From positions 62,001-126,000 of the forward strand of contig NZ_JAEMNV010000012.1 in assembly GCF_016482825.1 (NCBI RefSeq): a stretch of 64,000 bases of DNA. Reading direction: 5' to 3'. The notes under the pieces were generated by a model. It saw only the letters and a program-made list of their open reading frames with translations, was not told where the DNA came from and made no database searches. Positions 11,057 through 39,225 of this stretch are shown piece by piece. Within the stretch, counting starts at the first letter, position 1; every line of letters begins with the position of its first letter. The position numbers and the translations under genes were made by a program. This DNA is from Antrihabitans stalagmiti. Its GTDB lineage: Bacteria > Actinomycetota > Actinomycetes > Mycobacteriales > Mycobacteriaceae.

Positions 11057-11075
11057 TCGACATCCACGATCCGAC

Positions 11076-11105
11076 GGCCGAAGGTTTCCCGTGAAACCTT
11101 CGGCC
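11076..11105. terminator. Bidirectional terminator hairpin
   Basis: A 12-bp perfect inverted repeat (GGCCGAAGGTTT and its complement) with a 6-nt loop lies between the convergent monooxygenase and acyl-CoA dehydrogenase-like genes. Stem-internal A/T tracts could serve both directions. Confidence 0.75.
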
Positions 11106-11118
11106 GCTGTCGTGCCGG

Positions 11119-12048: not shown

Positions 12049-12163
12049 GTGGCTGACCGTAGCGTGGACGGTCAGGTAGCAGACTACTCAGGACACCTGA
12101 GCAATTTGAGAGTAGAAATTGTGGGTTACCACTCGCTTACTACCCGCACGAATCGAGAAAGAC

Positions 12164-12367: not shown

Positions 12368-12422
12368 TCAGCCGAACAGAAAGCCCGCACTTGCCGGACC
12401 AGTAGAGACTCCTGGACCCACA

Positions 12423-13102: not shown

Positions 13103-13120
13103 TGTCACTCTCTCGGTTTC

Positions 13121-13146
13121 TAGTTGTACGTGCATACATATAAAGC
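13121..13146 (-). promoter_or_regulatory. Candidate MarR-regulated promoter of the SMR pair
   Basis: On the minus strand this reads CTTTATATGTATGCACGTAC. It contains a -10-like TTATAT and an imperfect TGTA-N6-TACA inverted repeat. The 12-nt CATACATATAA core on the plus strand is repeated at the marR start (13666-13676). Confidence 0.5.
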
Positions 13147-13191
13147 GAGGCAGGAGTCGGCGTATCTCGCAGCTGTCGATGCCGCAACGCG

Positions 13192-13662: not shown

Positions 13663-13699
13663 GTACATACATATAAGCTAGCAGGAGGTCGACCAACAA
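13658..13699 (-). promoter_or_regulatory. marR promoter with overlapping operator
   Basis: On the minus strand, TTGTTG (13699-13694) and TTATAT (13676-13671) are 17 nt apart, a good SigA-type promoter. An ATGTA-TG-TACAT inverted repeat directly follows the -10 box and reaches the start codon, a position suited to autorepression and leaderless transcription. Confidence 0.55.
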
Positions 13700-13702
13700 G
13701 AG

Positions 13703-13728
13703 AGCCCGCCCCCAATCGGGAGCGGGCT
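13703..13728 (-). terminator. Terminator after tRNA-Ala
   Basis: An inverted repeat AGCCCGC/GCGGGCT with inner CCC/GGG pairing, followed on the minus strand by a short T-rich tract, 18 nt beyond the tRNA 3' end. Confidence 0.7.
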
Positions 13729-13746
13729 ACTTGCTGTTGCGAACTG

Positions 13747-13819
13747 TGGAGCCTAGGAGATTCGAACTCCTGACATCTGCCTTGCAAAGGCAGCGCTCTA
13801 CCAACTGAGCTAAGGCCCC
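13747..13819 (-). tRNA. tRNA-Ala (TGC)
   Basis: A 73-nt cloverleaf on the minus strand. The 5' GGGGCCT pairs with the 3' AGGCTCC followed by A. The D-arm TAGCTCAGTTGG, the anticodon loop CTTTGCAAG with anticodon TGC, and the T-loop GTTCGAATC are all present. CCA is not encoded. Confidence 0.97.
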
Positions 13820-13864
13820 GAACGGGTCGATATTGACTTGTACTTACCGGCCCGAGTCGATCGG

Positions 13865-13975
13865 TCAGTGCTGCGTGGCTTCGTGCCAGACATCCGCACC
13901 GCTCTGCTTGGAACGCAGCTTGGTGAGTCCGAACAACACAGCCACCGTGACACCTAGGAGCAGAAGAAGTTTCAT
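13865..13975 (-). CDS. DLW-39 family small protein
   Basis: A 36-codon gene between the two tRNAs. It starts MKLLLLLGVTVAVLFGLTK, one membrane helix, followed by a short cytoplasmic tail ending ADVWHEATQH. This matches the small actinobacterial DLW-39 family, named for a D-L-W motif near the C-terminus (here D-V-W). The location between tRNA-Ile and tRNA-Ala downstream of gyrA is conserved in the group. The function is unknown. Confidence 0.8.
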   Translation of the reverse strand: MKLLLLLGVTVAVLFGLTKLRSKQSGADVWHEATQH

Positions 13976-14005
13976 GTCTTCCACCCTAACTTCTCGTCTC
14001 GGTAG

Positions 14006-14079
14006 TGGGCCTAGGAGGACTTGAACCTCCGACCTCTTCGTTATCAGCGAAGCGCTCTAACCGCCTGAGCTATAGGCCC
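14006..14079 (-). tRNA. tRNA-Ile (GAT)
   Basis: A 74-nt cloverleaf on the minus strand: GGGCCTA acceptor paired with TAGGCCC plus A, D-arm TAGCTCAGGCGG, anticodon loop CTGATAA with anticodon GAT, and T-loop GTTCAAGTC. The usual position downstream of gyrA. Confidence 0.97.
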
Positions 14080-14193
14080 GTGAACCTCGGAACCCGGGTA
14101 AAAATCCCACCCTGGACCGAGGCACGAGATTACCGTACGGGACCGGCGATAACCAAAACGGCCGAGTTCCCCGTGACCGGAATCAACCCGGAT

Positions 14194-15402
14194 CTAGTCC
14201 GGATCGGCCAGCGTGACCTCGATACCGCCGACCAGATCCGAGCATTGGTTGTAGATAAACGATCCGATCGTGGCCAACGCAGTGAAAAGCACCACATTGA
14301 TCAGCCCGATACCCGCCGCGTAGCCGAAGATCTGGCCCGCACTGACAAGTCCGTCGGAGCTGGAATCGGACACGATATCGGTGAACGCGTTGTTGAGCCG
14401 ATCCCAGACACCCATGCCAGCGAGCACGATGTAGAGCAGGCCGACCGCAACCATCCAGATGAAGAACAGCGCAACCGAGATGACCAGCGTGACCTTGAGT
14501 GTCGACCAGGGATCGATTCGGCGAAGCTGGACCGTCGCACGCAACGGTGTGCCGTCACCAACGGCGACCGCAGCACCCGCAGTCTGCAACGCCGGGGCAC
14601 TCGCCTCCTGCGGAAGCGGATGACGCACCTCGGACAGGTCCGGCATGTCCTTGGCAAGCTCGGGCCGCGCGATGCTCCGGGTCGGACCGTCGATCGCGTC
14701 CGACTTCGCCTTAGCCGCTTCCTTGCGCTGCGACTTCGCTTCCTCGACCTGTTCGCGTCCCACCTGTGGAGCACCGACAGGCGGCCTACCGACAACCGGT
14801 GCCTCACCGGGACGGTTGAGGTTCGACTGCGGCTCACGCTGGGGAGCGCGCTGCCACGGCGGTGTCGACGAGTGGTTGTGCCCGTTCTGCACCTTTGCGG
14901 TCACAGCAGACGGATCGACGTTCTTGCCGTCTTGACGCTGTTCCGGAACCGGCCGACCGCCGCGGGTCGGCGGACCCTGATGTTGCGGCGGCTCGAAGTT
15001 CGCGGGCCGCACCTGCGTCGTGTCCGCGGGACGCGAGACCGGCTGGCCCGCATTCGGCTGCTGATTGTTCGGCTGCGGAACGAGTGGCTGACGTGTCGGC
15101 AACTTCGGTTGCTGACCCTGCTGATTCGAGCCTGAAGACACCGGCGGAGGCGTTGTCGTCCGCTGCTGATCGACGGCAGGCATCGCCTGAGTCGGCGGCT
15201 GCTGCTGCGGATTCGACGGAATCGGCCGCGGCAGCGGACGCGGCTGCAACGGCTGCCGTACCCGTTCGGTCACAGATTCAGGGGCAACACGATCCTGTGC
15301 CCCCCGCTGCGGCAGAGGTCCCGCAGCGGGACCGTTCACAGGCTCGGATCGGCGAGGCTCGCCGGGTCCGCGCGGATCGTCGGGATGGTCAGGAGTACTC
15401 AC
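14194..15402 (-). CDS. DUF3566 membrane protein downstream of gyrA
   Basis: A 402-residue protein from GTG 15402, overlapping the gyrA stop by 4 nt. Residues 1-280 are Pro/Gln/Arg-rich and probably disordered. The last 110 residues are the DUF3566 domain, starting [13 protein letters not shown] with two membrane helices ([20 protein letters not shown] and [20 protein letters not shown]). The homologue in mycobacteria is the gene just after gyrA. The role is unknown. The N-terminal region is unusually long and low in complexity. Confidence 0.88.
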
Positions 15403-17912
15403 TTGGGCTCCTTGGCTCCGTCTGTGGCGGCCGGAACCTCGTCCGGCTCATCGGCGTTGCGGGCAATCGCGAGCAAGGTATCCCCTTCGCCGAGATTCAT
15501 CAGTCGCACACCCTTGGTCTGTCGGCCTGCCTTGCGAACCTGCTTGGCAGCAGTGCGAATAACTCCGCCGCCCGAGGTTATCGCGTAGAGCTCGTCGTCG
15601 TCGTTCACGATAAGCGCTCCGACCAGAGTGCCACGCCGTTTGTCGTACTGAATCGTGAGGACGCCCTTGCCGCCACGACCCTGCACAGGGTAGTCGTCCA
15701 TCGGCGTTCTCTTCGCGTAGCCGCCGTTGGTGGCGACGAGAAGATACATACCCTCCTGCACGACGTTGAGCGACAGCAACTGATCTTCGCCGTTGAAACG
15801 CATGCCCTGAACACCGGAGGTCGCGCGACCCATCGGACGTAGCGCCTCGTCGGTCGCGGAGAAGCGGATCGACTGACCCAACGCCGAGACAAGCAGCAGA
15901 TCGTCGTCCGCAGAACACAGCGACGCTCCGACCAGTTCGTCTTCACCACGCAGATTCACCGCGACGATGCCGCCGCTGCGGTTGGAGTCGAAGTCGGTCA
16001 ACTTCGACTTCTTCACCAGACCCGCGCGGGTGGCGAGGACCAAGTAGGGCGCGTCTTCATAGGTCTTGAGCTGAATGACCTGTGCGATGCGCTCGTCCGG
16101 CTGGAATGCGAGGAGGTTCGCGACATGCTGACCACGTGCGGTCCGGCTTGCCTCGGGCAGCTCGTAGGCCTTCGCCCGGTAGACCCGACCCTTCGTGGTG
16201 AAGAACAGAATCCAGTCGTGCGTGGAGCTGACGAAGAAGTGCTTGACGATGTCGTCCTGCTTGAGGCCGGCACCTTGCACACCCTTGCCGCCGCGCTTCT
16301 GCGAGCGGTAGAGGTCGGTCTTGGTCCGCTTCGCGTAGCCGGTTTCGGTGATCGTGACGACCACATCTTCGCGGGCGATCAGATCTTCGTCGGCGACGTC
16401 ACCGTCTGCGGCGATGATCCGGGTCCGGCGGTCGTCGCCGTACTTCTCGACGATCTCGGCGAGCTCGTCGTGGACGATCTTCCGCTGCCGTTCCGGCCTG
16501 GCGAGAATGTCCTTGAGGTCGGTGATCTCGAGCTCGATCTCCGCCAACTGATCGACGATCTTCTGCCGCTCGAGAGCAGCAAGTCGACGCAACTGCATGT
16601 CGAGGATGGCGGTTGCCTGGATCTCGTCGACGTCGAGCAGTTCCATCAACCCGACGCGCGCAATCTCGGTGGTCTGCGACCGCCGGATCAACGCGATCAC
16701 TTCGTCGAGCGCATCGAGCGCCTTGACGAGTCCGCGCAAGATATGTGCGCGTTCCTCGGCCTTACGGAGCAGGTACTTGGTCCGCCGGACGATCACTTCG
16801 AGCTGATGAGTGACGTACAGGCGGATCATCTGGTCGAGGCGGAGTGTGCGCGGCACACCGTCGACGATGGACAGCATGTTCACACCGAAGCTGGTTTGCA
16901 GCTGGGTGTGCTTGTAGAGGTTGTTCAGTACAACCTTTGCGACGGCGTCACGTTTGATCGTGACGACGATGCGCATGCCGGCACGGTCCGACGACTCGTC
17001 GTGAATGTCGGAGATTCCGGAGATCTTGCCGTCGCGGACCTGCTCGGCGATGGACGTGATCAGGTTGTCCGGGTTCACCTGGTACGGCAACTCGGTCATG
17101 ACGATCGTGGTGCGACCCTTGGCGTCTTCTTCGATCTCGACGACACCACGCATCCGGACCGAACCGCGTCCCGTTGTGTAGGCGTCGTGAATGCCCTGGC
17201 CGCCGACGATCAAGCCGTAGGTCGGGAAGTCGGGACCCTTCACGTACTCCATGCAGGCTGCGAGCGTCGCTTCTTCGTCGGCCTCGTAGTTCTCGAGCGC
17301 CCAGTAGATCGCGTTGGCGAGTTCCGGCAGGTTGTGCGGCGGAATGTTCGTCGCCATACCGACCGCGATGCCGCCACTGCCGTTCATCAACAGGTTGGGG
17401 ACGCGGCTGGGGAGAACCGTCGGCTCTTGCGTGCGGCCATCGTAGTTGGGAACGAAATCGACTGTCTCATGGTCGATTTCGCGCAACATCTCCATCGCAA
17501 GCGGAGTGAGGCGGCACTCTGTGTAGCGCATCGCGGCAGCCCCGTCGTTGCCGCGGGAACCGAAGTTGCCCTGACCGTCGACCAGCGGGTACCGCAGCGA
17601 CCACGGCTGCGCCATACGGACCAACGTGTCGTAGATCGACGCATCGCCGTGGGGGTGATAGTTACCCATCGTCTCGGCGACGGGTCGGGCCGACTTCACA
17701 TAGCCGCGATCGGGGCGGTAACCGTTGTCGTACATCGCGTAGAGCACACGACGGTGAACCGGCTTGAGACCGTCACGCACGTCGGGCAGTGCACGCCCGA
17801 CGATGACGCTCATGGCGTAGTCGATGTAGCTGTTCTGCATCTCCTGCTGGATGTCGACAGGTTCGATGCGGTCCCCGGCGCCGCCTGACGGCGGCAACGT
17901 GGTGTCGGTCAT
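15399..17912 (-). CDS. gyrA: DNA gyrase subunit A
   Basis: An 837-residue GyrA. The catalytic tyrosine lies in AAMRYTE and the quinolone-resistance region reads [15 protein letters not shown], with Ala at the position that is Ser83 in E. coli, as is usual in mycobacteria and relatives. The C-terminal beta-pinwheel carries the GyrA box QRGGKGV. With GyrB it introduces negative supercoils using ATP. It follows gyrB with a 41-nt gap on the same strand and is coupled to the DUF3566 gene. Confidence 0.97.
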
Positions 17913-17953
17913 GTGCTCACTTTCGGTAGAAGAAGGCCGCTACTCGCAGGTGC

Positions 17954-20131
<2,178 letters not shown>

Positions 20132-25139: not shown

Positions 25140-26324
25140 TCAGCCCGGCAAGCGAACCGGCATCAACAGATACGTGTAGTCGCTCTCCGGCGCCGTGAAG
25201 CTACCCGAGGCAGCCGATTCAGGCTCATCGTCGGACGCTGGACGCAGCACCGCAGGCCTGCTCGGTGTCGTGAAACCGAACGACACCCGATCGCTGTGCA
25301 GCGAACCGAGACCGTCGATCAAGTAGCCGGGGTTGAACGCGATGGTCAGCGCAGTGCCTCTGAAGTCAGCCTCCAGCGCTTCCTCTGCACGACCGGCGTC
25401 TTCCCCACCAGCGGAAAGCAACAATCCTTCGTCGGAGAACTCGAGTCGAACCTGAGCACCGCGGTCCGCGACGAGTGCAACACGCTTGATGGCCTCGATG
25501 AGTGGTGCGACGTCGAGAGTCGCCATCGACGTGTGTTCCTTCGGCAGCAGCTGCCTGAACTTCGGGAATTCGGCGTCGAGCAGGCGAGTCGTGGTCCGTC
25601 GACCCGAGGTCACGATGCCGAGCAGACCTTCGGCACCGACCGTCGAACCGCCACCGAGCGACAGTTCGACTCGCGAATCCAATGGTCCGACAAGCGTTTT
25701 CGCAGATTCCGACAGCGTCTTCGCTGGAATCAACACCGCAGCCTTCACATCGGCCTTTGCGGGTTCCCAATCGACGTGCCGCACTGCGAGCCGAAAACGG
25801 TCGGTCGCAGCGAGCACAACCTTGTCGCCCTCGATCTCGACGCGAATACCCGTCAGCATCGGCAACGTGTCGTCCTTACCGGCCGCAACGGCAACCTGAC
25901 CGACCGCTTCGGAGAACGCGTCGACCGACAACGAGCCGGTCTTGCCGGGCAGTTCGGGAAGCTGTGGATAGTCCTCGACAGGCATCGTCGGGAGAGAGAA
26001 CTTGGCACTGCCGCACGCAATCAGGACGCGGGTGCCGTCGACGGTCACATCGACAGGCTTGCCTGGCAGCGACTTGGTGATGTCGGCAAGGAGTCGACCT
26101 GACACGAGCACCTCGCCATGACCGGCAACCTCTGCCGAGATACGCATCTGCGCGGAGACCTCGTAGTCGAACCCGGAGACGGTCAGGCCGTCCTCGGAGG
26201 TCGCGAGCAACACCCCGCCGAGTACAGGAACCGGCGGCCGGGAAGGAAGGCTGCGGGCGACCCAGGCGACAGAATCGGCAAAGTCTTCTCGAGCGACTCG
26301 AAACTTAATGCTCGCAAGCTCCAT
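25140..26324 (-). CDS. dnaN: DNA polymerase III beta sliding clamp
   Basis: A 394-residue clamp from ATG 26324 ([15 protein letters not shown]), with GAGGAAAAG upstream; an in-frame ATG at 26396 is discounted. The three clamp domains are recognisable, with [10 protein letters not shown] in domain 1, DRFRLAVR in domain 2 and the C-terminal [12 protein letters not shown] that ends beta clamps (MPxRL). It forms the processivity ring for the replicase. The upstream intergenic region is the probable origin. Confidence 0.97.
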
Positions 26325-26482
26325 CGCCCGGCTTTTCCTCTCGGTCGGTTGGGGTTCCAACGTCGTCGAAGTCTGACACACGACGCCGACAGACACGCTA
26401 TGCGTTCCGACTCCAACTTGAAAGCCGAACGTCGACGCTGACGATCTCTCGAAGGTGCCGTTCGACCCTTCGTCCCCAACAC

Positions 26483-26531
26483 CTGTTTTTAAAGAGTTAA
26501 TTAGAGGACTAGAACAACAACAGTATTAGGT
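26483..26531. other. AT-rich candidate unwinding element of oriC
   Basis: The stretch around GTTTTTAAAGAGTTAATTAG is clearly more AT-rich than its surroundings and lies on the dnaN side of the DnaA-box cluster. Confidence 0.5.
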
Positions 26532-26697
26532 CCTGTGGAATCTGTGGACCAAGCCCGAAGTCGCAGGTGGCCAAGCGTGGCGACCTGGGGATGGACTCGG
26601 GACAAGCTCGAGGAGCAACGTGACCGGTTGGGGACGGTTCGAGTTTGTCGACATCTCTCCCAAGTTCATCCCCAGGCATTTGGGATTACTCACAAAG

Positions 26698-26706
26698 TTA
26701 TCCACA
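26698..26706 (+). promoter_or_regulatory. DnaA box
   Basis: TTATCCACA, an exact match to the consensus DnaA-binding 9-mer. Confidence 0.8.
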
Positions 26707-26753
26707 GGTGTGAGTTGTTTCATTTTGTTGGAATCGGAGACCTGAAGCAGGAC

Positions 26754-26789
26754 AAAAAACGGCGGCACCCGGTGTTGCGGGTACCGCCG
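26754..26789 (-). terminator. dnaA transcription terminator
   Basis: On the minus strand a GC-rich stem, CGGCGGTACCCG paired with CGGGTGCCGCCG with one mismatch, is followed by six T residues. It starts 36 nt after the dnaA stop. Confidence 0.85.
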
Positions 26790-26824
26790 AAAGTTGTCCG
26801 ACATCGGTGAATCCACGACGGGAG

Positions 26825-28417
26825 CTAGCGCTTCGAACGCTGCTTGATACGTGCCGTCAGCTCCTGGACCTGGTCGTATACCTTCCGACGCTCGGTCATC
26901 TCCTTTTTGATCTTCTTTTCCGCGTACATGACGGTCGTGTGGTCACGGCCGAAGGTCTGACCGATCTTGGGTAGTGACAGATCGGTCAGCTCGCGGCACA
27001 GATACATCGCGATCTGCCTCGCCTGGGCCAGTGGCCTGGCTTTTCCTGGCCCGCAGAGGTCGTCGATCGAAATCGTGAAGTACTCGGCGGTAACGGCCAT
27101 GATCGTCGCCGCATTGATCTCCAACGTCGCCGTATCGGGCATCAGATCGCGCAAGACGATCTCGGCGAGAGTCAGGTCGAGTGGCTGACCGTTGAGCGAC
27201 GCGAACGCCGTCACACGAATGAGCGCGCCCTCCAATTCGCGGATGTTGCGCTCGATCCTGCTTGCGATCAGCTCGAGCACATCGTGGGGAACATCGAGCC
27301 GATCCATGCGGGCCTTCTTACGAAGAATCGCGATCCGGGTTTCGAGTTCCGGTGGCTGCACATCGGTGATGAGGCCCCACTCGAATCGCGTCCGCAGACG
27401 TTCCTCGAGGGTCGTCAGCTGCTTCGGCGGCCGGTCGGAGGAGACAACGATCTGCTTGTTCGCGTTGTGGAGTGTGTTGAAGGTGTGGAAGAACTCTTCC
27501 TGGATACCTTCCTTGCCTTCGATGAACTGAATGTCGTCGACGAGCAGTACGTCGGTCTCGCGGTACCGGCGTTTGAACGCAACCTTGCGGTCGTCACGGA
27601 GACTGTTGATGAAGTCGTTGGTGAACTCTTCGGTCGAGACGTACTTGACGCGCATGCCAGGGAACAATCGCTGCGCGTACTGCCCGGCCGCGTGCAGTAG
27701 GTGCGTCTTCCCGAGGCCGGAGGCACCCCAGACGAACAGTGGGTTGTAAGCCCGTGCCGGAGCTTCGGCGATTGCAACGGCCGCGGCGTGCGCGAAGCGG
27801 TTGGACGCTCCGATCACGAAGGTGTCGAACGTGTACTTCGAGTTGAGGCTGTTCGTACCCGAGGACGACGACGGCGCATCGGCCGGCTTGGTGAAGTAGG
27901 ACGGCCACGAACTCTGGATGCTCGCAATCGCCTCGCGCTCGTCGTCGATCTCGTCGAACGCGGAACTGCCGTTCGCTCCGGTGAGCCGGCGTCGCCGAAA
28001 ATCTGTTTCCGTCGACATGTCGTCGTCGACGTCGTGGGTCATCCGTTCGGGTCCGGAGCGAGTCCGGTTGCGCGGCTCCGGACCGGGGTGCGGTGGTGGG
28101 TCCATCGCAATTTCAGGTGTTTCGGACGCTGCTTCGGCTGCGGCGATACGGACGCCGAGACCTTCTACCTGAATGCCGAGATGGCGTCCGAGGGACTGCA
28201 AAATCGGTTCGCGGAGGTCGCGCTCGATGGCTTCTTGTGCGAAAGACGACGGGACGGACAGCAACGCGAATCCCTGGGTCAGCGTCAGCGGTTTGACCAG
28301 CGCGAGCCACGCTTTGTGCGCGTTCGTCAGAGGAGTGGTCGATCCGTCCGAACCACTGTTGAGCGCTGCAACCACGTCAGGCCATACCGCTGCGAGTGCA
28401 TTTTGGTCGTCGTTCAA
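26825..28417 (-). CDS. dnaA: Chromosomal replication initiator protein DnaA
   Basis: A 530-residue initiator. Domain I starts [12 protein letters not shown], followed by an acidic/Pro-rich linker, the AAA+ Walker [14 protein letters not shown] near residue 232, Walker [10 protein letters not shown] and the domain IV signature [14 protein letters not shown]. The start is taken as TTG at 28417 because AGAGGAGG lies 8 nt upstream and the sequence then matches actinobacterial DnaA; a longer frame to 28546 has no such support. DnaA binds the boxes on both sides of its own gene. Confidence 0.96.
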
Positions 28418-28546
28418 GACGGGTGCCTCCTCTTGTGGAGATTCGATGAGGCTTGGGTACGACTGCACCGAACCCCGGTGTGGAGCGACCCCGAACCGCG
28501 CCACGTAGGGATACGAATATGCCACCCCGGTGCTGTCTCCACACAA

Positions 28547-28555
28547 TTATCCACA
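28547..28555 (+). promoter_or_regulatory. DnaA box upstream of dnaA
   Basis: TTATCCACA, an exact consensus, flanked by further TCCACA-type half matches within 25 nt. It lies 130 nt upstream of the dnaA start. Confidence 0.7.
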
Positions 28556-28704
28556 GATGTGGAGAAACACAGGGATGTTACTTGGATCTCCTGCGACCCG
28601 GAACAAATCGCCCTCACCTGGGCTTTTTCGGACAGTTTCTGATAAGCCGACCCTAAGTAAGCCTGGTCGAGGTCTGGAACCTGTGGAATCTGGGTGCAGC
28701 GAGT

Positions 28705-28734
28705 TTGACCCGACCAGGGCGACCCGATTACCCT
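28705..28734 (+). promoter_or_regulatory. Candidate rpmH promoter
   Basis: TTGACC (28705-28710) and TACCCT (28729-28734) are separated by 18 nt, which fits an actinobacterial SigA-type promoter (TTGACn and TAnnnT). It would give a leader of about 180 nt. Confidence 0.5.
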
Positions 28735-28918
28735 CGTACAGTCACCCGCTGGTGAGGTGGCCGCTTCGTGCTGGCTGGGCTTGCTCGGTTCACGATCCTC
28801 GGATCGGCCGTTGCTTGCGTTGCGTCACCAGTGTTGGACCAAAGTTGTTTTACCACCAGATTTGCAAGTCCCCATTGGGCACCACGAGGGTGCCTACGAT
28901 TTTCGAGGAGTGTTCACC

Positions 28919-29062
28919 GTGGCCAAGGGCAAGCGGACGTTCCAGCCGAACAACCGACGCCGCGCGCGTGTTCACGGCTTCCGTCTCCGGATGCGGACCC
29001 GTGCGGGCCGCGCAATCGTTTCTGCGCGTCGCCGTAAGGGCCGCGACACACTGACCGCCTGA
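28919..29062 (+). CDS. rpmH: 50S ribosomal protein L34
   Basis: A 47-residue, strongly basic protein from GTG 28919 ([20 protein letters not shown]), with GAGGAG upstream. Length and the [12 protein letters not shown] motif identify L34. It begins the rpmH-rnpA-yidD-yidC-jag operon. Confidence 0.97.
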
Positions 29063-29089
29063 TCGATACCTTCGGGTTCGGACGCTCGG

Positions 29090-29494
29090 GTGTTGCCTGA
29101 GCCACATCGGTTGCATCACCACGCAGACTTCTCCCGGACGGTGCGCCGCGGCCATCGAATCGGGAGGCGTGACCTCGTCGTGCACATTTTCGACAGGAAC
29201 CGTGCTGCCGATGATGCGACCTCCGAACCTGTTCTCGGCGTCGGTGGACTCCGAATGGGTTTGATCGTGAGCAAGACCGTCGGCAACGCCGTCACACGTC
29301 ATCGTGTTGCGCGTCGCCTGCGGCACAGCTTTCACAGCTTGATCGACGACGTCGACCTCAGTGTCGACGTCGTCGTTCGTGCATTACCCTCCGCTGCGTC
29401 TGCGTCGTCCGCGGATCTCGAGCGCCAACTTCGCGCCGGGCTGTCGAAAGTTCGCCAGCGCTCGATGTCCCCCGCCGAAAATACTCGGCGATGA
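29090..29494 (+). CDS. rnpA: Ribonuclease P protein component
   Basis: A 134-residue basic protein from GTG 29090. The RNR motif region VGNAVTRHRVARRLRH and the early FSRTVRRGHRIGRRD segment identify the protein subunit of RNase P, which matures tRNA 5' ends. It follows rpmH by 27 nt and overlaps yidD by 4 nt. Confidence 0.95.
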   Translation: MLPEPHRLHHHADFSRTVRRGHRIGRRDLVVHIFDRNRAADDATSEPVLGVGGLRMGLIVSKTVGNAVTRHRVARRLRHSFHSLIDDVDLSVDVVVRALPSAASASSADLERQLRAGLSKVRQRSMSPAENTRR

Positions 29495-29826
29495 TGGCGC
29501 AACGATTGCAGACCTCGGTCGCGTTCGTCAGGAACGCTCCCGTTCGGTCTCTCGTTTTTCTCGTCGAGCTGTACCGGACCTATGTGTCCCCCACTCGCAT
29601 GCCGACCTGTCGATTCACCCCAACCTGTAGTGAGTACGCAGTCGACTCGCTGCGCGAATGGGGTGTCTTTCGGGGTCTAGCTTTGACGGTCGTTCGATTG
29701 GCTAAATGCGCGCCCTGGCACCCTGGTGGGTGGGACCCGGTTCCGCAGCGCAAAAGCCGCCGCGACCATAAGACCGATACGAAGCACCACTCGATGCCGA
29801 GTGTGAATCAACAGAGGAGTACATAG
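29491..29826 (+). CDS. yidD: Membrane protein insertion efficiency factor YidD
   Basis: A 111-residue protein overlapping rnpA (ATGA). The core [27 protein letters not shown] and [14 protein letters not shown] is the diagnostic YidD sequence (given here in parts of one motif set) with three conserved Cys. It is thought to help YidC insert membrane proteins. The C-terminal 25 residues are a charged tail. Confidence 0.93.
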
Positions 29827-29830
29827 AGCC

Positions 29831-30970
29831 GTGCTCGACTTCATCTACTACCCGGTCGCCGCGATTTTGTGGTTCTGGCACAAGGTGTTCGGGGCCATCC
29901 CGTTCCTCGGGCCGGCCAACGGAATTGCGTGGGCGCTCTCGGTTGTGTTCCTCGTGTTCACGTTGCGACTGCTGCTGTACAAGCCCTTCGTCAAGCAGGT
30001 GCGCACAACACGTCAGATGCAGGAACTGCAGCCGCAGATCAAGGCGCTGCAGAAGAAGTACGCGGGCGACCGCCAGCGTCAGGCTCTCGAACTGCAGAAG
30101 CTGCAGAAGGAACACGGCTTCAACCCGATCATGGGCTGCCTTCCTGTTCTTGCGCAGGCGCCGGTGTTCATCGGTCTCTATCACGTGCTGCGTTCGTTCA
30201 ACCGGACCGGTCACGGAATGGGTCAACTCGGCCTCGATCCGGCGACCAACAGAACGCTGAACAACTATGTGTTCGATGTTGCAGACGTCAACTCGTTCCT
30301 TGATGCTCGTCTGTTCGGCGCACCGATTTCGGCTGCGGTCACCGCACCGGAAACCGAGCTGATCGGCTTCGTCAACGAGAACCTCGGCCTCGGGCTCCCC
30401 TCGACTGTGGGCCTTGCACTCGTCGCCATCCCGTTGATGATCATTGCGAGCCTCGCGACGCACTTCAACGCTCGTGCGTCGGTCGCCAGGCAGAGCGAAG
30501 CAGCCGCAGCCAACCCGCAAGCCGCGATCATGAACAAGTTGGCCCTGTGGGTGTTCCCGCTCGGTGTGCTCGTGTTCGGTGTGTTCCTGCCGATCGCCAT
30601 CCTGCTGTACTGGGTTGCCAACAACATCTGGACCTATGGTCAGCAGCACCTGGTGTTCCGCAAGATCGACAAAGAAGAAGAGGCCAAGAAGCAAGAGGTC
30701 CTCGAGCGGCGGACACAGAACGCACCGAAGCCAGGCGCGAAACCGATGAAGACGAAGGGTGGGGCAGTCGAGCTGACGAAGGGTTCCTCACTCGACGACA
30801 GCGACATCGAGGACGACGAAACTCCGTCGACACCGAAGCCCGGTCAGAAGCCGAAACAACCCGTGAAGCAAGCTCAGAAGAGGCCCAACAGGGGTACCAG
30901 TCAGCAACGTAGGCCTTCCGGAGCGCGGTCGGGCAATCGTGGTAGGTCGAACAAGCGAAAGCGAAGCTGA
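29831..30970 (+). CDS. yidC: Membrane protein insertase YidC
   Basis: A 379-residue protein from GTG 29831, 4 nt after yidD. Membrane helices begin at once ([20 protein letters not shown]). The conserved region [21 protein letters not shown] follows and later helices include [22 protein letters not shown]. It lacks the periplasmic P1 domain, as in Gram-positive types. The Lys/Pro-rich C-terminal tail is typical of ribosome-binding tails in actinobacteria. Confidence 0.95.
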
Positions 30971-31020
30971 GCCGGATGCTGACAGAAAAGACGCGGGAAG
31001 AAGAGGAAACGGAAACCACA

Positions 31021-31587
31021 ATGGGAACTGATTCCGGAAACGGAACCGACGAGGGCAGCGTTGCAGTGACCGACGTTGCCACCACCGAGGTCGATGACGC
31101 ACCCGGCAAGGATTCGGCTGAATCCGACGATTACCTGATCGAAGAAGGCGAGATCGCGGGCGACTACCTCGAGCAGTTGCTCGACGTACTCGACTTCGAC
31201 GGTGACATCGATCTCGACGTCGAGGGTGATCGCGCCATCGTGAGTATCGACGGCGGCAAGGATCTGTCGAAGTTGGTCGGTCGTAAGGGCGAGGTGCTCG
31301 ACGCCCTGCAGGAGTTGACTCGTCTTGCCGTGCAGCAGTCGACAGGCGAGCGAAGCCGGTTGATGCTCGACGTGGCAGGTTGGCGTGCGGGTCGGCGTGC
31401 GGAACTGACGACACTTGGCCGAGACGCCGCACAACGGGTCCTCGAGTCCGGCGAACGTGAGGCGTTGAGTCCGATGACGCCGTTCGAGCGCAAGATCGTT
31501 CACGATGCTGTTGCCGGTATTGACGGAGTTTCGAGCGAGAGCGAGGGCGCCGAGCCTTCCAGGCGAGTAGTGGTAGTCCGGCAGTGA
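31021..31587 (+). CDS. jag: Jag/KhpB-type RNA-binding protein (KH-R3H)
   Basis: A 188-residue protein. An acidic N-terminus is followed by DYLEQLLDVLDFDGDIDLDV and the KH-like GGKDLSKLVGRKGEVLDALQ, then the R3H domain ending FERKIVHDAVAGIDGVSSES. It binds RNA and in other bacteria affects cell division and envelope genes. ATG 31021 was preferred because the purine-rich GAAGAAGAGG lies just upstream; an in-frame ATG at 30976, 5 nt after yidC, would add 15 charged residues and is possible. Confidence 0.9.
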   Translation: MGTDSGNGTDEGSVAVTDVATTEVDDAPGKDSAESDDYLIEEGEIAGDYLEQLLDVLDFDGDIDLDVEGDRAIVSIDGGKDLSKLVGRKGEVLDALQELTRLAVQQSTGERSRLMLDVAGWRAGRRAELTTLGRDAAQRVLESGEREALSPMTPFERKIVHDAVAGIDGVSSESEGAEPSRRVVVVRQ

Positions 31588-31603
31588 GTGGGTAGACAAT
31601 CAG

Positions 31604-31640
31604 CAGGGCCTCCGGTCGTCGACCGGAGGCCCTGTTTGTT
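31604..31640 (+). terminator. Terminator of the rpmH-jag operon
   Basis: A perfect stem of 15 bp (CAGGGCCTCCGGTCG and its complement) followed by TTTGTT. A very strong intrinsic terminator 17 nt after jag. Confidence 0.92.
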
Positions 31641-31690
31641 ATCGAGAGCAAATTACATCGATGTTGTTCCGTCGCTAGACGCAGTGGAGG

Positions 31691-32362
31691 ATGTTTCACG
31701 TGGAACGAAATGACAGCGAGACGATAGAGCCTCCGCCCGCCGCACATCGAATCTTCGGTGATCGCATCGAACTGGCAATCGCCTATTGGAAGGCTCTGTC
31801 GACCGATGGTGTCGAGCGCGGACTTATCGGTCCGCGTGAAGTGCCGAGGCTGTGGGAACGACACATCCTCAATTGCGCTGTCATCGGAGAACTGATTGCC
31901 GAAGGGGAATCCGTAGTCGACATCGGTAGCGGTGCCGGGCTGCCCGGGATCCCGCTCGCGATCGCTCGGCCCGACCTCCGGGTCGCTCTGGTCGAGCCTC
32001 TGCTGCGCCGCACTCGATTCCTCGGCGAGTTCGTCGAAGCCGCCGGCCTCGACATCACCGTGGTCCGCGGCCGCGCAGAGCAAGCCGGCGTTGTGCATGA
32101 AGTCGGTGGTGCCGACGTCGCCACGTCCCGCGCAGTTGCTCCGCTCGAGAAGCTGTCCAAGTGGTCACTCCCCCTCGTTCACGAGAATGGACGCATGCTC
32201 GCGATGAAGGGGTCCAGCGCGGCTGAGGAGATCACACGGGATCGCGCTGCGCTCACCCGACTCGGCGCCGGTGCCGTCGACGTCGTCGAGTGCGGATCGA
32301 CGTTCCTCGAAACACCGACGATCGTTGTGCGCGCGGTAAGAATCGCGAAGCGGCACAAGTAG
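31691..32362 (+). CDS. rsmG: 16S rRNA (guanine527-N7)-methyltransferase RsmG
   Basis: A 223-residue methyltransferase of the GidB family, with the SAM-binding [18 protein letters not shown] and the preceding [14 protein letters not shown]. Loss of this enzyme gives low-level streptomycin resistance in several bacteria. The first codons ATG-TTT-CAC-GTG are formed by a parS site. The GGAGG touches the ATG at 31691 but is 9 nt from the in-frame GTG at 31700, so translation may really begin at that GTG inside parS. Confidence 0.93.
31692..31707 (+). promoter_or_regulatory. parS site 1 (in rsmG start)
   Basis: TGTTTCACGTGGAACG, one change in the right arm from the TGTTTCACGTGAAACA consensus. It overlaps the rsmG initiation region. 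Confidence 0.9.
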
Positions 32363-32689
32363 GGGCGTCGTCGTCACGGGCGCAGGAGTGGTGTGTTCTC
32401 GAGTTGATCGCACCGGAGGTAGAGCCGTGAGTGTGGTTCCGTCTTCTTGTTGCGCGAGTGGTTTAGATGCGGTCGAGCCGATTTACACGCAGTGACAGAA
32501 CCCCCGATTCGAGGACCGCTTCGGGAGAACGAGCGGCGACGGATCCTTTCGCGCCTCGTGTCACGTGACTCCTCGGACCTGTTGGTCAGGTGTGCGCCCA
32601 CATCGACGAGAAATTCTGACTTCTTGGTCGTACGGTCCGTCTTGTCTCGGCCAGAAATTACTTCGATGTTATTAGTGGTCGGCGGGAGT

Positions 32690-32705
32690 TGTTTCACGTG
32701 GAACA
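32690..32705 (+). promoter_or_regulatory. parS site 2
   Basis: TGTTTCACGTGGAACA, in the same orientation as site 1. Confidence 0.92.
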
Positions 32706-33731
32706 CAACCTGTTCGACTAGGTAGCTCTCCGGAGCAGTCAGGGGCGGAGAACAGTTCTGGAGGATTCGCCATCTGCACAACACTCCCCTACGAGTCGCG
32801 GGTAGGACGGAGTTGATGGATCGCTGCTTCCCCGAAAATCAGAGGGGACCGGGTTGTCGATTCCCCGCGATTAAGACGCCGGGCGCTGTGTCTTACCCCC
32901 TTGCGCCGTGAGGTTCGGCTCGACTGCTCGGGTCCGCTGACTCGAATACGAAACGAGCGAAATCTGGGGCTACCGGTCGCTTCCCGAATAGGACACTTTG
33001 CATGCGGACGTTGCGATCTCGGTCAGCTCGTACATCGACCATTTCCAACAACCAGCAGCAGCGCGTTGATGACCGGAAGCGTCGCTGTTCGATACACCGT
33101 TCATCGCCAAGGTGAAGATGCAGTGGATTGCCTTCGTAGTGCATGTCGCGTGGAGTTGCCCGTCAAGGGCTTGTGACACGTAGAGCTCGGCGAACAAGTT
33201 TCGTAGCGTGGGCGACGCCGGGTCTCACTGCTGCAATTGGGATACAGGAGTGAGCGGTGCACAGATGGGCTTGCGTGGAGGGAAGCGCTGCCGTCGGTTC
33301 CCTGCTTCTACGCCGGGCGTTACGTGGCTTGCTGTGCTCATGGTGTCGTCTTGGAGCAACGTAGACCTGGACACCGATGTAGCCGCGGCTTTCGGTTCAT
33401 TCATCGTGTTGTCGGTGACAACCTGCCGACAGTGTCGATGCCTGCGCTGCAGCTGGGATGAATGTGACTGTGTCACGGCTAGCGGTTGCTGGAACTAGTT
33501 TGATGTACGAGCTGATCGAGAGTGCGGTTGTGCGCACGCGGTGTCCGGTTCGGTGGGTGGCGTTCGAGAGCCCCTCTACTCTCACGTCGAGGATCCGATC
33601 ATGAGTGGATGCTCGCGACATCATCGGCAGGCGTACCGGTCGCGTGTCATCATCGGCCGGCCTACCCGTCCCCCGGCTCCGGCGGCGTGATCGTTTGATC
33701 GCGGTCATCGATCGGGTCGGTGGTCCTCCGA

Positions 33732-33747
33732 CGTTCCACGTGAAACA
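33732..33747 (-). promoter_or_regulatory. parS site 3
   Basis: CGTTCCACGTGAAACA on the plus strand, the exact reverse complement of site 1. Confidence 0.92.
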
Positions 33748-34999
33748 TGGCGATTGCTCTGAGTGATTGGTAGCCCCAGGAGATTGCGGAGAAGCGATGT
33801 GTGAGCCGCGGCATCCATAACCGTCGGACGACCCGCCGCCAGTCCCTCCAAAGCTGGAACATGACGGTTAGGTGGGTCTGGCAAGTACTCAGGTTGCGGC
33901 GAGCGGATCGTCGCCTGCCAAGACCGGTGACTGTCGCGGATCGCTCACAGTCGATCGGAGATGCCGGTTGTGACCGACCGGCTCATCCTTGTCGATGCCC
34001 CTGCATGGATGGTTGCTCGACTACAGGCAGCTCGGTTTGGATTCGAGCGGAATCCTGACACGGTTCATCGAAGGCTTCGTGACAATGCATGTCCTACCCG
34101 ATCTTGGTTCGTCGTAGTTGTCGCCGAGATGCACTTCGTGCGTGAAGCCACGAGAGTCCCGCCCAGGGGCGTGAAGGCGAAGTCCGGTCGGACCTCTCCT
34201 GCTAGCGTCGCGCCCTCGACGACGTGCAGCACGCCACCGAAGAATCGCTTCGGCGGAGGACTGCGCAACTGCCGAACTCCTTCACGCCGGTGTCGACTGT
34301 GCCTACAGGGTTACGGCATGCGCGCCCGCGACCGAGGAATGGTGCTGCGGGGACATCGACAACCCGGAACCCAACCCGACGATCCGAACGACCGACCGAA
34401 CACCGGGGCGTCCAGGTCTACGCGCGCATTGCGGATCGGTCGACGATCGTGCACCGGGGCCTCGCCTGACGCTTTGTCGAGTGAGGGGTGGTGGACTTGC
34501 AATTGGCCACACAGAGCGGGCGGAGTGGATTTCGCGCAGTGAGGGTCTGCGACGCCCGTAGATCTCATCGCTCGGCGGCCGATAGATCGTGGTGTTCCCT
34601 CGCCACAATTGGATCCAGTCAGGCGAGTTGCGCGGCCCGAGAGTGGATCAGTCCTGACGGTAGGCAGAGCAACCGTGTGCGAACCGTGGTTGTTCGATCT
34701 GTTGAGATCTTCAGGCCTTCCAAGTCATGTAGTCGGTGGCACGGCTATGGCTTGCTCGGTGGGCCGACCCCGGCTACCCGGAAGAGAGCGAAGGCGCGGA
34801 GAGGTGTTGGGTGGATTCTCGACCGCCGATGATCGGCTGCACGCATTCCGTTCATTAGGGGGTGGCCGAACAACGGGCGCATCCGCATGTCCCTTACGTC
34901 GCGCCCGTCGCTGAGATCGTCTGTCGTCCCTGAGAAGGAGATGGTCGCGGAGTCGGCCCAGCTCTCACAACCTGTCGGTGTGGGTGCGCCACCAGCTGA

Positions 35000-35015
35000 G
35001 GTTCCACGTGAAACA
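35000..35015 (-). promoter_or_regulatory. parS site 4
   Basis: GGTTCCACGTGAAACA on the plus strand, reverse orientation, differing from site 3 only at the first base. Confidence 0.92.
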
Positions 35016-35582
35016 TGCGGTCGAGGTCACTGAGCCAGCCATCGTGTCCTATTCCCTCGACCGAGTGTTTGTGTAGCTCACTACTGCCGGTACTGGAGTG
35101 TTATTGCCAGGGACGACTCGTTGGATGGCAGTTCACGTGGCCGTTCGAGTCCGACTGCGCGGGCCAAAACTCGGATGCACAAGCATGACGTCGATTTTTG
35201 GGAGCATGGTTTGAACCGACCAAACGTGACTTTGCGTCAGATGTACCGCGAGTGAGTTCGTGGTCGTCTGCGCGATCGGGAGCGTTCTGCTGGAACGGCG
35301 GTGGGAAGTCGTGGTGGATAAAAGACCGTCGACCACAACTAGGTATGAGTCGCGAGGGCGGGTGACCGTGTCCGTGCAGTCACGTCCCACTGGTAGGTCT
35401 GAACGTCGTAATCCGTCGATGTCGGTTCGTCGTATTGGAGACGGATTCGATCTATCTGAGGACGTATTGCGACGAGCGGTGGACTGCAAATGTAGGCCAG
35501 CGTTCCGGAAGGATTCGCGACCGGGAATCGGATTGGCCGTACCGTGCGACAGCGTCCCCAGTGCATTCGGAGATGTCCGCAA

Positions 35583-35598
35583 TGTTTCACGTGGAACG
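35583..35598 (+). promoter_or_regulatory. parS site 5
   Basis: TGTTTCACGTGGAACG, identical to site 1. It forms an inverted pair with site 6, about 94 nt away. Confidence 0.92.
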
Positions 35599-35691
35599 CT
35601 CGGGGACGAGCTGCGACGGTGGCGGTGATTCCCGATCAGTTGCCGCGTCGTCTACTCCAAAAACAAATACCGCACATCCCGCCCTGTCGAC

Positions 35692-35707
35692 CGTTCCACG
35701 TGAAACA
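35692..35707 (-). promoter_or_regulatory. parS site 6
   Basis: CGTTCCACGTGAAACA on the plus strand, the exact reverse complement of site 5. Confidence 0.92.
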
Positions 35708-36293
35708 TGGGCGTCCGATCGCTTGGGGCTAGGCCTTCTCGGCAAAGGAACCCGGTGACATCGCCGCACCCGAGCGATTGACAAGTGCAGCCGAATCGGC
35801 CGGGAGTCCAGGCGCGGATCGACGGACCACCTACCGCCCGACTCGATGACCCGCCTTCTGAATCTGGATCGGTGCCACAGGAATTCGAGTGACGGCGATA
35901 GGCGATCCGATGTCGCCCGTTGTCGATAGGTTCGGACATCTAGTACGGCTGAACGGGCCTCTCCGATCCGACGGCCAGCATGTCTCTGCAGACCACAATC
36001 ACCCGGCGGGCGAACACAAGTTTCTTCGTCTGGTCGGGCTAGTGAGGCAACTTCTATTCGACAAATCACGTTTCGGCGTGTCGGCTGCGTGTCTCGGTTG
36101 GTTTGGCCGCGCCCGACTTCCTTATCGGAGCGGGTGCTGGCAAGCTTGGGTTCATCGCGTATGACGGTGGAGCTGACGCCGACCAGAGCCGCTCGGTGAA
36201 GCACGATCGCTGCGACGAGCCGATCATTTCTGGGGGGCGACTCCTGTTGAAGTCATAGACTTTTCGATTCGCTGTAAGGGTTAAGGAGAGCTA

Positions 36294-37289
36294 ATGCCAG
36301 GTGGTACCAACGTTTCACGTGAAACGTCCACAGAACCACTGTTGGAGGCCGGACGTCACGGGAAGGTCGATCCTGATTTCGCTGCCGCGTACCCCGGCAT
36401 CTCCCTCACCGACACCCCGATAGGCGCTGCTGCGCAACGTGCAAGCCAAGTCCTGCACCCGGAGTCTGTAGCACTTCCGAAGCTGAAAGAACGCCGCGTG
36501 ATCACGGTTGCGAACCAGAAGGGTGGCGTTGGCAAGACGACGACTGCAGTGAATCTCGCATCCGCGCTAGCACTGCAAGGGCTGACAGTTCTCGTCGTCG
36601 ACCTGGACCCGCAGGGTAATGCCAGTACGGCCCTCGGGGTCGATCACCGCTCCGGAATTGCGTCCAGCTACGAACTGCTGCTCGGCGAGACAACGGCGAA
36701 GGAAGCCATTCAGACGAGCCCGCACAGCCCGCGTCTGCTTTGCATTCCGGCCACGATCGACCTTGCCGGCGCCGAGATCGAACTGGTGTCGATGGTTGCG
36801 CGTGAAGGTCGATTGAAGACGGCACTGAGCGATGCCGCACTCGAGGAATTCGAGATCGACTTCGTGCTGATCGACTGCCCGCCGTCCCTCGGACTGCTGA
36901 CCGTTAATGCAATGGTCGCAGCCAAGGAAGTCCTGATTCCTATCCAGTGCGAGTACTACGCGCTGGAAGGTGTCGGACAGTTGCTTCGAAACATCCAACT
37001 TGTGCAGGCACATCTGAATCCCTCACTGCACGTATCGACCGTAATTCTCACGATGTACGACGGTCGAACGAAGCTCGCGGATCAGGTCGCGGACGAGGTT
37101 CGCAACCACTTCGGAGAAGCTGTTCTTCGCGCGGTGATCCCGCGCAGCGTCAAGGTCTCCGAGGCCCCTGGCTACGGGATGACCGTGCTCGACTACGACC
37201 CGGGTTCGAGGGGTGCAATGAGTTATCTGGATGCAGGGCGTGAACTTGCTTCTCGCTCCGCCGGCGTAGTTGGGAGCGTGGAGCGATGA
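36294..37289 (+). CDS. parA: Chromosome partitioning ATPase ParA
   Basis: A 331-residue ParA/Soj from ATG 36294, with TAAGGAGAG upstream. A variable 65-residue N-terminal extension precedes the deviant Walker [15 protein letters not shown], then the switch [10 protein letters not shown] and the Walker B-like [13 protein letters not shown]. It binds DNA non-specifically with ATP and moves ParB-bound origins. Codons 6-10 are a perfect parS. parB overlaps its stop by 4 nt. Confidence 0.96.
36311..36326. promoter_or_regulatory. parS site 7 (in parA 5' coding region)
   Basis: CGTTTCACGTGAAACG, the only fully palindromic 16-mer of the seven, located 17 nt inside parA and encoding part of NVSRETS. 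Confidence 0.93.
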
Positions 37290-38305
37290 GTCAGGCACGC
37301 AACAAGGGTGGTCTCGGCCGCGGCCTTGCAGCTCTGATTCCAACCGGACCGACCGGCGGTGGACCCGGTCTCGGCAGTGCAGCTGCCGACGTCATCATCG
37401 GCGTCGAGCGATCGAGCGCCGCGTTGAAGCTGGCCGGTGCGAACGAAACGAAGGCACGTGCGGAAGCCGCGGACGAGGCTGAACTGGCTCCGGCTGGCGC
37501 CGTATACCGCGAGATTCCACCCGGTCAGATCAAGCCGAATCCGAAGCAGCCGCGCCAGGTCTTCGAAGAGGAAGCGCTCACCGAGCTCGTCCATTCGATC
37601 CGTGAGTTCGGGCTTATGCAGCCGATCGTCGTTCGACGGACAAGCCCGAAGAGCTACGAGCTCGTCATGGGCGAGCGCCGTTGGCGAGCAAGTCAGCTCG
37701 CGGGCCTGGAGGCGATTCCGGCAATCGTTCGGGAGACCGCGGACGAGTCGATGCTCCGCGACGCGTTGCTCGAGAATATCCACCGCGTTCAGTTGAATCC
37801 CCTCGAAGAAGCAGCCGCGTATCAACAGCTGCTCGAAGAGTTCGAGGTGACTCATGAGGAACTCGCGAACAAGCTCGGCCGATCGCGTCCCGTCATCACC
37901 AACATGATCCGGCTGCTGAAGCTTCCGATTCCAGTGCAGCGTCGCGTCGCTGCCGGTGTTCTGTCGGCGGGTCACGCGCGTGCTCTCCTCGCTCTCGAAG
38001 CCGGAGCGGACGCGCAGGAGGTCCTCGCAGCGCGCATCGTCGCCGAGGGACTGTCGGTTCGCGCGACCGAGGAAGCTGTCACGTTGGCCAACCGGGAGGA
38101 CGCAACTGCGCTGCAACCCGCTGCCCGACGCAAGCCGATTCAGATGCCAGGACTGCAGGATGTGGCCGAGCGACTGTCCGAGTCCTTCGACACGCGCGTC
38201 ACCGTCAGCCTCGGCAAGCGAAAAGGCAAGATTGTCGTCGAATTTGGATCGGTCGACGACCTTCAACGCATCGTCGGATTGATGGAGAAAGAAGGGGCAA
38301 TTTAG
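37286..38305 (+). CDS. parB: Chromosome partitioning protein ParB
   Basis: A 339-residue ParB/Spo0J starting [19 protein letters not shown], the conserved ParA-stimulating N-terminus. The ParB-N domain has the CTP-binding box GERRWRA and [16 protein letters not shown]. The central helix-turn-helix [19 protein letters not shown] binds parS, and the C-terminal dimerisation domain ends IVGLMEKEG. It loads at the parS sites listed here and slides as a CTP-dependent clamp. Confidence 0.96.
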
Positions 38306-38499
38306 CCCATTTCGAGGGGGTTCCGGCCATACGCGGTCGATACGTCACAGTGACAGGTCGTCGAAACGGCCCTTTGGAGCCGTAACTCTCACCTGACAGG
38401 CGGTTCGCATCGCCTATCCTTAGCAGTGGCCAGTGCCGAATTCGCGGTGCTGGATTTCTCGAGCCGATCACATTCGGTGGGTATGGAGGCTGAGCGAGC

Positions 38500-39225
38500 G
38501 TGTCGACCAGCGTCACCGCCCTCACCCTCGACCGCCTCGACACCCTCCCGACCCACTCTCGACGATGTGTGTTCTGGGAACTCGATCCAGCAGTGGCAGC
38601 GACATCCAAAGAATTCACGGATCCGGTATTCGAGAAGGAAGCTTGGCTGTCGTCGGTGCTCCTCGAGTGGGGCTCCTGCGGACAGGTCGCGACAGTCGAC
38701 GGATTCCCGGCAGGTTGTGCGCTCTACTCGCCGCCGAGCGCTGTTCCCCGCGCGACGCTGTTCCCGACCTCACCCGTCAGCGCGGACGCCGTCCTATTGA
38801 CCACACTGCGCCTCGAGCGCGGAGCTGGCCGGGAAGACGTCGCCAACGACGACGCGCTGGCTAGCAGTCTCGTACAGGCAGTCGTCGCCGATCTTGTCCG
38901 CCGAGGTGTTCGTGCTCTTGAATCCTTCGGCATAGTCAAGACCGACGAAGAGAACGATCCCGATTCTGCGGCAGCCGACGCAACACCGACCGCCACAGCG
39001 GCACTCGACTGCTCGCCGACGACCTGCATGATTCCCGCGGACTTTTTGGAAAGCGTCGGATTCGAAGTCGTTGCGCCTCATCATCGATTCCCTCGACTGA
39101 GGCTCGAATTGGACCGCGACCATGGTTGGAAGGCCGACGTCGAGTACGCCCTCGAGCAGTTGCTGGCCGCCGCGCAGATTACGGTTCCGGATTTTGGCTA
39201 CCGAACGAAGGCCGGTGCCAGATAG
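38500..39225 (+). CDS. GNAT-like acetyltransferase family protein near parB
   Basis: A 241-residue protein from GTG 38500. The C-terminal half (VQAVVADLVRRGVRALESFGI, then MIPADFLESVGFEVVAPHHRFPRLRL) follows the GNAT pattern of a helix after the CoA site and a final FLxxxGF strand, but the canonical R/Q-x-x-G-x-G/A CoA loop is not obvious. A gene of this kind next to parB is common in the group. The acetyl acceptor is unknown. Confidence 0.7.
   Translation: MSTSVTALTLDRLDTLPTHSRRCVFWELDPAVAATSKEFTDPVFEKEAWLSSVLLEWGSCGQVATVDGFPAGCALYSPPSAVPRATLFPTSPVSADAVLLTTLRLERGAGREDVANDDALASSLVQAVVADLVRRGVRALESFGIVKTDEENDPDSAAADATPTATAALDCSPTTCMIPADFLESVGFEVVAPHHRFPRLRLELDRDHGWKADVEYALEQLLAAAQITVPDFGYRTKAGAR

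Follow-up and report, generated by a model that had tools for sequence, protein, structure and literature searches.

A seven-site parS cluster in Antrihabitans stalagmiti and a spacer that may descend from a decayed rsmG copy

The locus described here is the segment from rsmG to parA in the actinomycete Antrihabitans stalagmiti (RefSeq assembly GCF_016482825.1). It lies in a stretch of 64,000 nucleotides (contig NZ_JAEMNV010000012.1, positions 62,001 to 126,000 of the forward strand), hereafter called the window, whose own coordinates are used throughout. Seven parS sites are clustered at this locus, five of them (sites 2 to 6) in the 3,931-nt interval 32363–36293, to which no strand is assigned and in which no gene was recognized. 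The reading that we favor, and hold to be reasonably probable, is that the locus is a chromosomal centromere whose spacer came from duplication of rsmG, or of its 3' end, the copy on the parA side having decayed while the promoter within it was retained. What suggests this origin is a degraded stretch resembling the end of rsmG, which follows a probable parA promoter immediately upstream of parA.

parS sites and the gene-free interval

Scanning the window for the pattern TGTTTCACGTGAAACA with up to three mismatches returned eight places, a number reached by none of 100 shuffled sequences (chance mean 0.18): the seven parS sites and a single place with three mismatches at 11083. All seven sites carry the exact core GTTYCACGTGRAAC, lie within 31692–36326 (4.6 kb), and are the only copies with zero mismatch in the draft genome (6,393,340 bases in 44 contigs); allowing one mismatch added seven further parS-like places, on five contigs. 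Site 1 (31692–31707, + strand) lies inside the start of rsmG (MFHVER), and site 7 (36311–36326, +), which is palindromic, lies inside the 5' end of parA (NVSRET). Between them are site 2 (32690–32705, +), site 3 (33732–33747, −), site 4 (35000–35015, −), site 5 (35583–35598, +) and site 6 (35692–35707, −). Site 5 repeats site 1 exactly, and both site 3 and site 6 give the same sequence on the opposite strand; this identity extends over 17 nt and includes the A of the ATG. These seven 16-mers, their orientations and their identities had been reported in a preliminary description of the window, and that account is correct throughout. Apart from parS, a repeat search yielded only short or imperfect repeats.

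The comparison with relatives covered 80 named loci, the best of 422 that were confirmed, together with 60 stretches taken from further genomes. A parS site is present at the start of rsmG in 126 of 133 loci, eight repeats having been dropped. In the clade of the window (three genomes), nine of ten spacer parS sites are of the asymmetric rsmG type, GTTTCACGTGGAAC, whereas 48 of 49 are palindromic in the 12 loci of g6; such lineage-specific forms could stem from ParB preference or from local copying. The exact parS count per genome ranges from 0 to 11 among 201 genomes of the family.

The preliminary description had also stated that the 3.9 kb between rsmG and parA contain no recognizable gene, and had proposed a codon-bias scan for hidden ones. 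A codon model trained on the neighboring genes gave a coverage of the interval of 0.00 at 25 bits, our cut-off for coding-like sequence. The best segment (36085–36228, +), which covers the promoter element and most of the rsmG-like stretch described below, scored 16 bits, compared with 11 in 10 shuffles and 66 for rsmG itself. In a six-frame Pfam search of the interval every match had an E value of 0.046 or above, three open reading frames (ORFs) of the window gave no match, Rfam at E 0.1 gave no match inside it, and a tRNA scan of 26000–38500 found none. The statement is thus upheld, and hidden genes were rejected as a candidate because the codon model, the six-frame Pfam search and the three ORFs were all without signal.

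How unusual this emptiness is depends on the cut-off. The codon model was also retrained on 464 kb, made up of the window and 20 further 20-kb stretches of its genome. At 16 and at 20 bits no gap in this DNA exceeded the 4,027 nt around the interval, and the runner-up measured 2,325 nt. At 12 bits chance segments split the interval, and its 1,840-nt part was still the longest gap; at 25 bits, however, L124, a stretch of the same genome, has a longer gap of 4,159 nt. L124 contains several long non-coding-like stretches within 2230–18944, up to 4.2 kb at the strictest cut-off, and this region may be an island of odd composition.

ParA and ParB are encoded side by side next to the interval (TIGR00180 for ParB; ParA-family matches under their curated cut-offs). 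Since this is an ordinary origin-proximal parS cluster beside parAB without coding signal, loading of ParB at the interval is very likely.

The probable parA promoter and the rsmG-like stretch

An element of the form TTCCTT-18-AAGCTT at 36118–36147 (+) contains the conserved 9-mer TGGCAAGCT at 36138–36146. Where rsmG abuts parA (gap <250 nt), this 9-mer lies inside rsmG, 97–103 nt before the stop codon, in 35 of 69 loci, its exact form being absent from the other 34. Where the gap is at least 250 nt, it was found in the last 200 nt of rsmG in none of 61 loci, and stands alone before parA in 48; the exceptions comprise eight loci of g27, three similarly arranged named loci (L012, L018 and L071), Tsukamurella and one Nocardia locus, 13 in all. 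The motif test found no TGGCAAGCT in the last 200 nt of the window's own rsmG. Its density across all loci, these sites counted, is 0.04 per kb on the same strand. The element is the probable parA promoter. The available part of the work on Mycobacterium (Casart 2008, PMC2346475) gives, for the Mycobacterium smegmatis parA promoter, the same −35 (TtCCtT) and 18-nt spacer, but a different −10 (CtCCCG), and the Mycobacterium bovis BCG promoter given there is unlike the window element. The same source maps the parA transcription start of Mycobacterium upstream of parA, where gidB (rsmG) and parA overlap, so that the promoter there presumably lies inside gidB. In the window, the parA transcript would start in the decayed rsmG stretch.

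That stretch, at 36147–36251 (+), resembles the 3' end of rsmG and is interpreted as what is left of the tail of a second, decayed copy. A gapped panel test compared the DNA after TGGCAAGCT with 12 intact rsmG 3' ends, using 400 shuffles and a control rsmG segment. The z scores were 4.4 for the window, 4.4 for L082 and 7.7 for L083, none of which was reached by any of the 400 shuffles, and those of the control segment were −0.3, −0.1 and −1.9, respectively. By alignment and by this test, recognizable remains of a second rsmG 3' end occur in the expected place and on the expected strand; the likeness covers about 100 nt and is degraded, and it does not have the form of a short exact repeat. A broader DNA profile scored 7.0 bits in the window and 2.5 in the best shuffle, and a gapless comparison gave p values of 0.0003 for L082, 0.027 for the window and 0.054 for L083, with two Nocardia loci at about 0.002 among 49 tested. 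Ranked from the weakest test to the strongest, these are the same-genus profile given below, the gapless comparison, the broader profile and the gapped panel test. The probable traces of another rsmG 3' end, at the parA side of the interval, offer an alternative, historical explanation of its emptiness.

Among 15 near pairs of loci, the spacer was less conserved than fourfold sites in nine, of which one had just 11 aligned columns, and more conserved in six; five of these six slower-drifting pairs involve spacers of the genus g10 with a coding-like segment. Length also differs within near pairs (3.2 vs 4.3 kb; 6.4 vs 3.5 kb). Comparison of the window spacer with those of L082 and L083 by blastn gave the parS matches, one weak 40-nt match to L082, and no more; L082 and L083 themselves share degraded DNA (72% over 217 nt). 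Exact parS was retained at 9 of 13 places, against 314 of 6,934 other 14-mers, in five pairs that share no genome, were chosen after the shared sites were known, and include two that kept no parS.

Several results weigh against a duplication followed by selective retention. Over all 12 pairs tried, including those with barely alignable spacers, parS was retained at 20 of 40 places. A DNA profile built from four same-genus rsmG genes did not separate the pre-parA DNA from shuffles: there was no match in the last 330 nt of the window spacer, L082 scored −0.2 bits (best shuffle 1.9), and L083 scored 2.9 bits, equal to its best shuffle. An after-the-fact reason may be that the surviving rsmG lacks the element in three of those four genomes. 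Between site 5 and the element, neither the 5' part nor the middle of a second rsmG could be detected: the score of the window's rsmG there was reached by 267 of 300 shuffles and those of other rsmG genes by 174–283 of 300; without such remains, at most a duplicated 3' end has been shown. In 16 of 46 Nocardia loci tested, which have the element, z ranged from 0.0 to 3.2 and the controls from −0.1 to 2.9, and in view of these weak, mixed values and high controls we make no claim of an rsmG fossil for Nocardia. Nor did the DNA after jag yield convincing remains of an rsmG 5' end in 19 loci whose spacer lies on the jag side of rsmG.

Two candidates for further remains were examined and set aside. 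Site 5 was dropped as the start of a lost rsmG copy because the DNA following it is unlike rsmG. In its favor, the 17-mer fits an rsmG start, and the 556 nt separating it from the promoter element differ by about 20 nt at most from the corresponding distance in the same-genus genome G001. Likeness to the rsmG 5' end in L094 (z 3.3) is not claimed, since a control segment scored 3.2 elsewhere. On all 85 spacers of at least 350 bp, an RsmG protein profile gave zero matches, and an rsmG DNA profile gave many weak ones, mostly parS itself, with none in reversed spacers.

According to the favored reading, the locus would be the ParB-loading zone of a bacterium of the Nocardia–Rhodococcus group, with two parS sites of a widespread kind (at the rsmG start and the parA 5' end) and five more in a non-coding spacer. 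The spacer would owe its existence to a duplication of rsmG, or of no less than the 3' end that contains the parA promoter. Of the two copies, the one next to parA would then have decayed to a fossil still carrying that promoter, and the intervening DNA would have grown and eroded freely. By analogy with known ParABS biology, ParB clamps bound to cytidine triphosphate would use the seven sites as loading points, from which they would slide along the locus. What selection maintains would be the promoter and parS; the spacer DNA would otherwise be mostly neutral. We infer both this order of events and the source of the extra parS sites.

Spacers in related genomes and alternative explanations

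A spacer between rsmG and parA is found in the window, G002 (4.7 kb), G003 (3.8 kb), Nocardia (0.27–6.4 kb), g27 (607–698 nt) and Tsukamurella L077 (2.4 kb). Many loci of g6, g21, g23 and Speluncibacter have a spacer of up to 5.2 kb between jag and rsmG instead (jag was outside the stretch read in three g21 loci). Little spacer exists on either side of rsmG in G001, Aldersonia, five g6 loci and others, and G001 has 65 bp in place of the rsmG–parA spacer. These states are interleaved in a tree of YidC, Jag, ParA and ParB (76 rows, quick method), which places the window's genome near Aldersonia and Nocardia. The preliminary description had envisaged a comparison of length and content with other Rhodococcus genomes. 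Among the relatives compared here similar spacers recur on either side of rsmG, but their lengths vary, some contain genes, and one same-genus genome has almost none.

Some loci have features of their own. In g27 (L141–L148) the rsmG–parA spacer is compact and its parS positions are similar from locus to locus, in contrast to the variability of spacers elsewhere. L160 (G170) has 5.2 kb from jag to rsmG with five parS inside. The first parS lies 63–292 nt after the jag stop codon in 28 of 29 listed loci with the spacer on the jag side (two repeats among them), and in L090, L092, L093, L094, L111 and L114 a run resembling CCCCTCCC comes after the first parS 3' of jag.

The genus g10 has two rsmG copies with a spacer between them. 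Exactly two rsmG matches were found in 12 of its 14 genomes; the remaining two have one and five, the latter being G192 (79% complete, 5% contaminated). In the 12 loci read (L098, L099 and L101–L110), the copies flanking the spacer are both intact, except that one in L103 is cut by the contig end, and coding-like segments occur in 8 of the 12 spacers. As in the window, the spacer adjoins parA and parS is present (in 11 of 12), but these loci are bounded by two intact rsmG copies, whereas the window spacer seems to end, on the parA side, at a decayed 3' tail. The tandem copies show concerted evolution with differences at the 3' end: in 9 of 11 loci compared they are sisters (their DNA identity is 0.937 within a genome, compared with about 0.84 from one genome to another), and mismatches are concentrated in the last eighth of the gene (27%, against 2–10% elsewhere). 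This pattern fits gene conversion halting near the parA-side end. If either copy were lost from such a state, the remaining rsmG would be flanked by a spacer on one side. The remains support this route only in the clade of the window, and for the spacer after jag it is a conjecture. A tentative and more speculative extension is that rsmG duplication, gene conversion and loss form a repeating engine at the origin, in which each round may open a gene-free spacer on one or the other flank of rsmG, parS may multiply in lineage-specific form (rsmG-type here, palindromic elsewhere), and recombination between copies may erase it again. The centromere would then be renewable, built from a gene for a ribosomal methyltransferase whose start includes a parS and whose end includes the parA promoter.

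The preliminary description had suggested a platform kept clear, that is, that selection keeps the interval gene-free since transcription would disturb the sliding of ParB clamps or the loading of SMC (structural maintenance of chromosomes) complexes. Part of this agrees with our data: parS-bearing spacers adjoining rsmG recur across several genera, many with several parS, 66 of the 85 spacers of at least 350 bp (two repeats among them) have no coding-like segment at 25 bits, and parS cores are retained more often than the background sequence, the remainder drifting. As a whole we find it unlikely, however, because G001 has no spacer, so that it is not present and gene-free throughout the clade, spacer length is unstable, and parS is absent from 29 of the 36 Nocardia spacers that are 350 bp or longer. 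Coding-like segments, moreover, occur in the other 19 of the 85 spacers. Pfam, applied to some of these segments, named those in L106 (g10; a lipase-like gene), L091 (a PF00144 serine hydrolase), L115 (an integrase-core gene) and, weakly, L083, so that some spacers contain genes or transposase remains.

A scar left by an integrating element, which would have hit the rsmG 3' end, duplicated that end, restored the gene and later been lost, seems to us improbable. It would suit a window that shows at most an rsmG 3' end, and transposase remains are common to L082 and L083, the latter having a Pfam rve match (E 1.9e-6, under the curated cut-off) near their shared degraded DNA. However, six-frame Pfam found no integrase domain in the window interval, g10 has whole-gene copies, and a degraded likeness of about 100 nt is unlike a short exact repeat. 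That no duplication took place, the element being a conserved promoter only and the next 100 nt resembling rsmG by chance or composition, is also quite improbable: the same-genus profile and the search for 5' or middle parts saw no rsmG likeness, and Nocardia loci with the same element score weakly, but three genomes each scored above all 400 shuffles and the control rsmG segment did not. Undetected genes or small RNAs are very improbable, since, despite ORFs of up to 205 amino acids and weak six-frame matches to the L082 and L083 spacers (E 0.003–0.1), the interval has no Pfam match below E 0.04, no Rfam match and a codon score near chance.

Neighboring genes and known systems

Upstream of the locus is jag/eloR (30976–31587, +; NCBIfam Jag_EloR, E 2.2e-31, under the curated cut-off at 109.5 vs 145 bits). 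Its 3' side has a GC-rich hairpin followed by T-rich DNA (31604–31634, +), seen by eye and possibly a terminator, which overlaps a sub-threshold Rfam Actino-pnp match (25.5 vs 47.7 bits) and is not among the places listed by a consensus terminator scan. The yield of the promoter and terminator scans was not above chance. The intact, jag-side rsmG (gidB) occupies 31691–32362 (+; TIGR00138, E 3.9e-35), parA 36294–37289 (+; ParA-family matches such as NF041546, E 2.5e-32, under the curated cut-off) and parB 37286–38305 (+; TIGR00180, E 3.8e-64). The position of dnaA (26825–28546), an intergenic gap at 26214–26830 and the turn of the cumulative GC skew at 25–26 kb together place the replication origin near dnaA, which would put it about 5 kb from the start of the parS cluster.

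A traceable origin is hereby proposed for an extended bacterial centromere, and it is suggested that a parA promoter within rsmG coding DNA can persist after the surrounding gene copy is lost. Genomes found in nature in different states (with two rsmG copies, with one copy and a spacer on either side, or with almost no spacer) allow tests of parS number, parS spacing and empty DNA. Literature searches on parS with rsmG and ParB, and on rsmG/gidB duplication, found nothing in either case, and absence from print is stated for those searches only. The proposed origin of the spacer, with rsmG 3' sequence before parA, is the main new point.

In Mycobacterium the gene order is jag-gidB-parA-parB (Casart 2008, PMC2346475), as in the window, and parS occurs once at the gidB regulatory region and once within parA; in contrast to the window, the available part of that paper gives two parS only, and gidB and parA overlap. 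In Corynebacterium glutamicum, ten parS are spread over 35 kb at 73 kb from oriC, nine of the ten are intergenic, and ParB binding around a single parS reaches as far as 16 kb away (PMC7083940). As in the window, several parS form one origin-side cluster and are mostly intergenic, whereas no single long gene-free spacer is described in the part of that paper available. Thus, the parS cluster of A. stalagmiti is ordinary as such, and it is the long spacer, together with its probable history, that is unusual.

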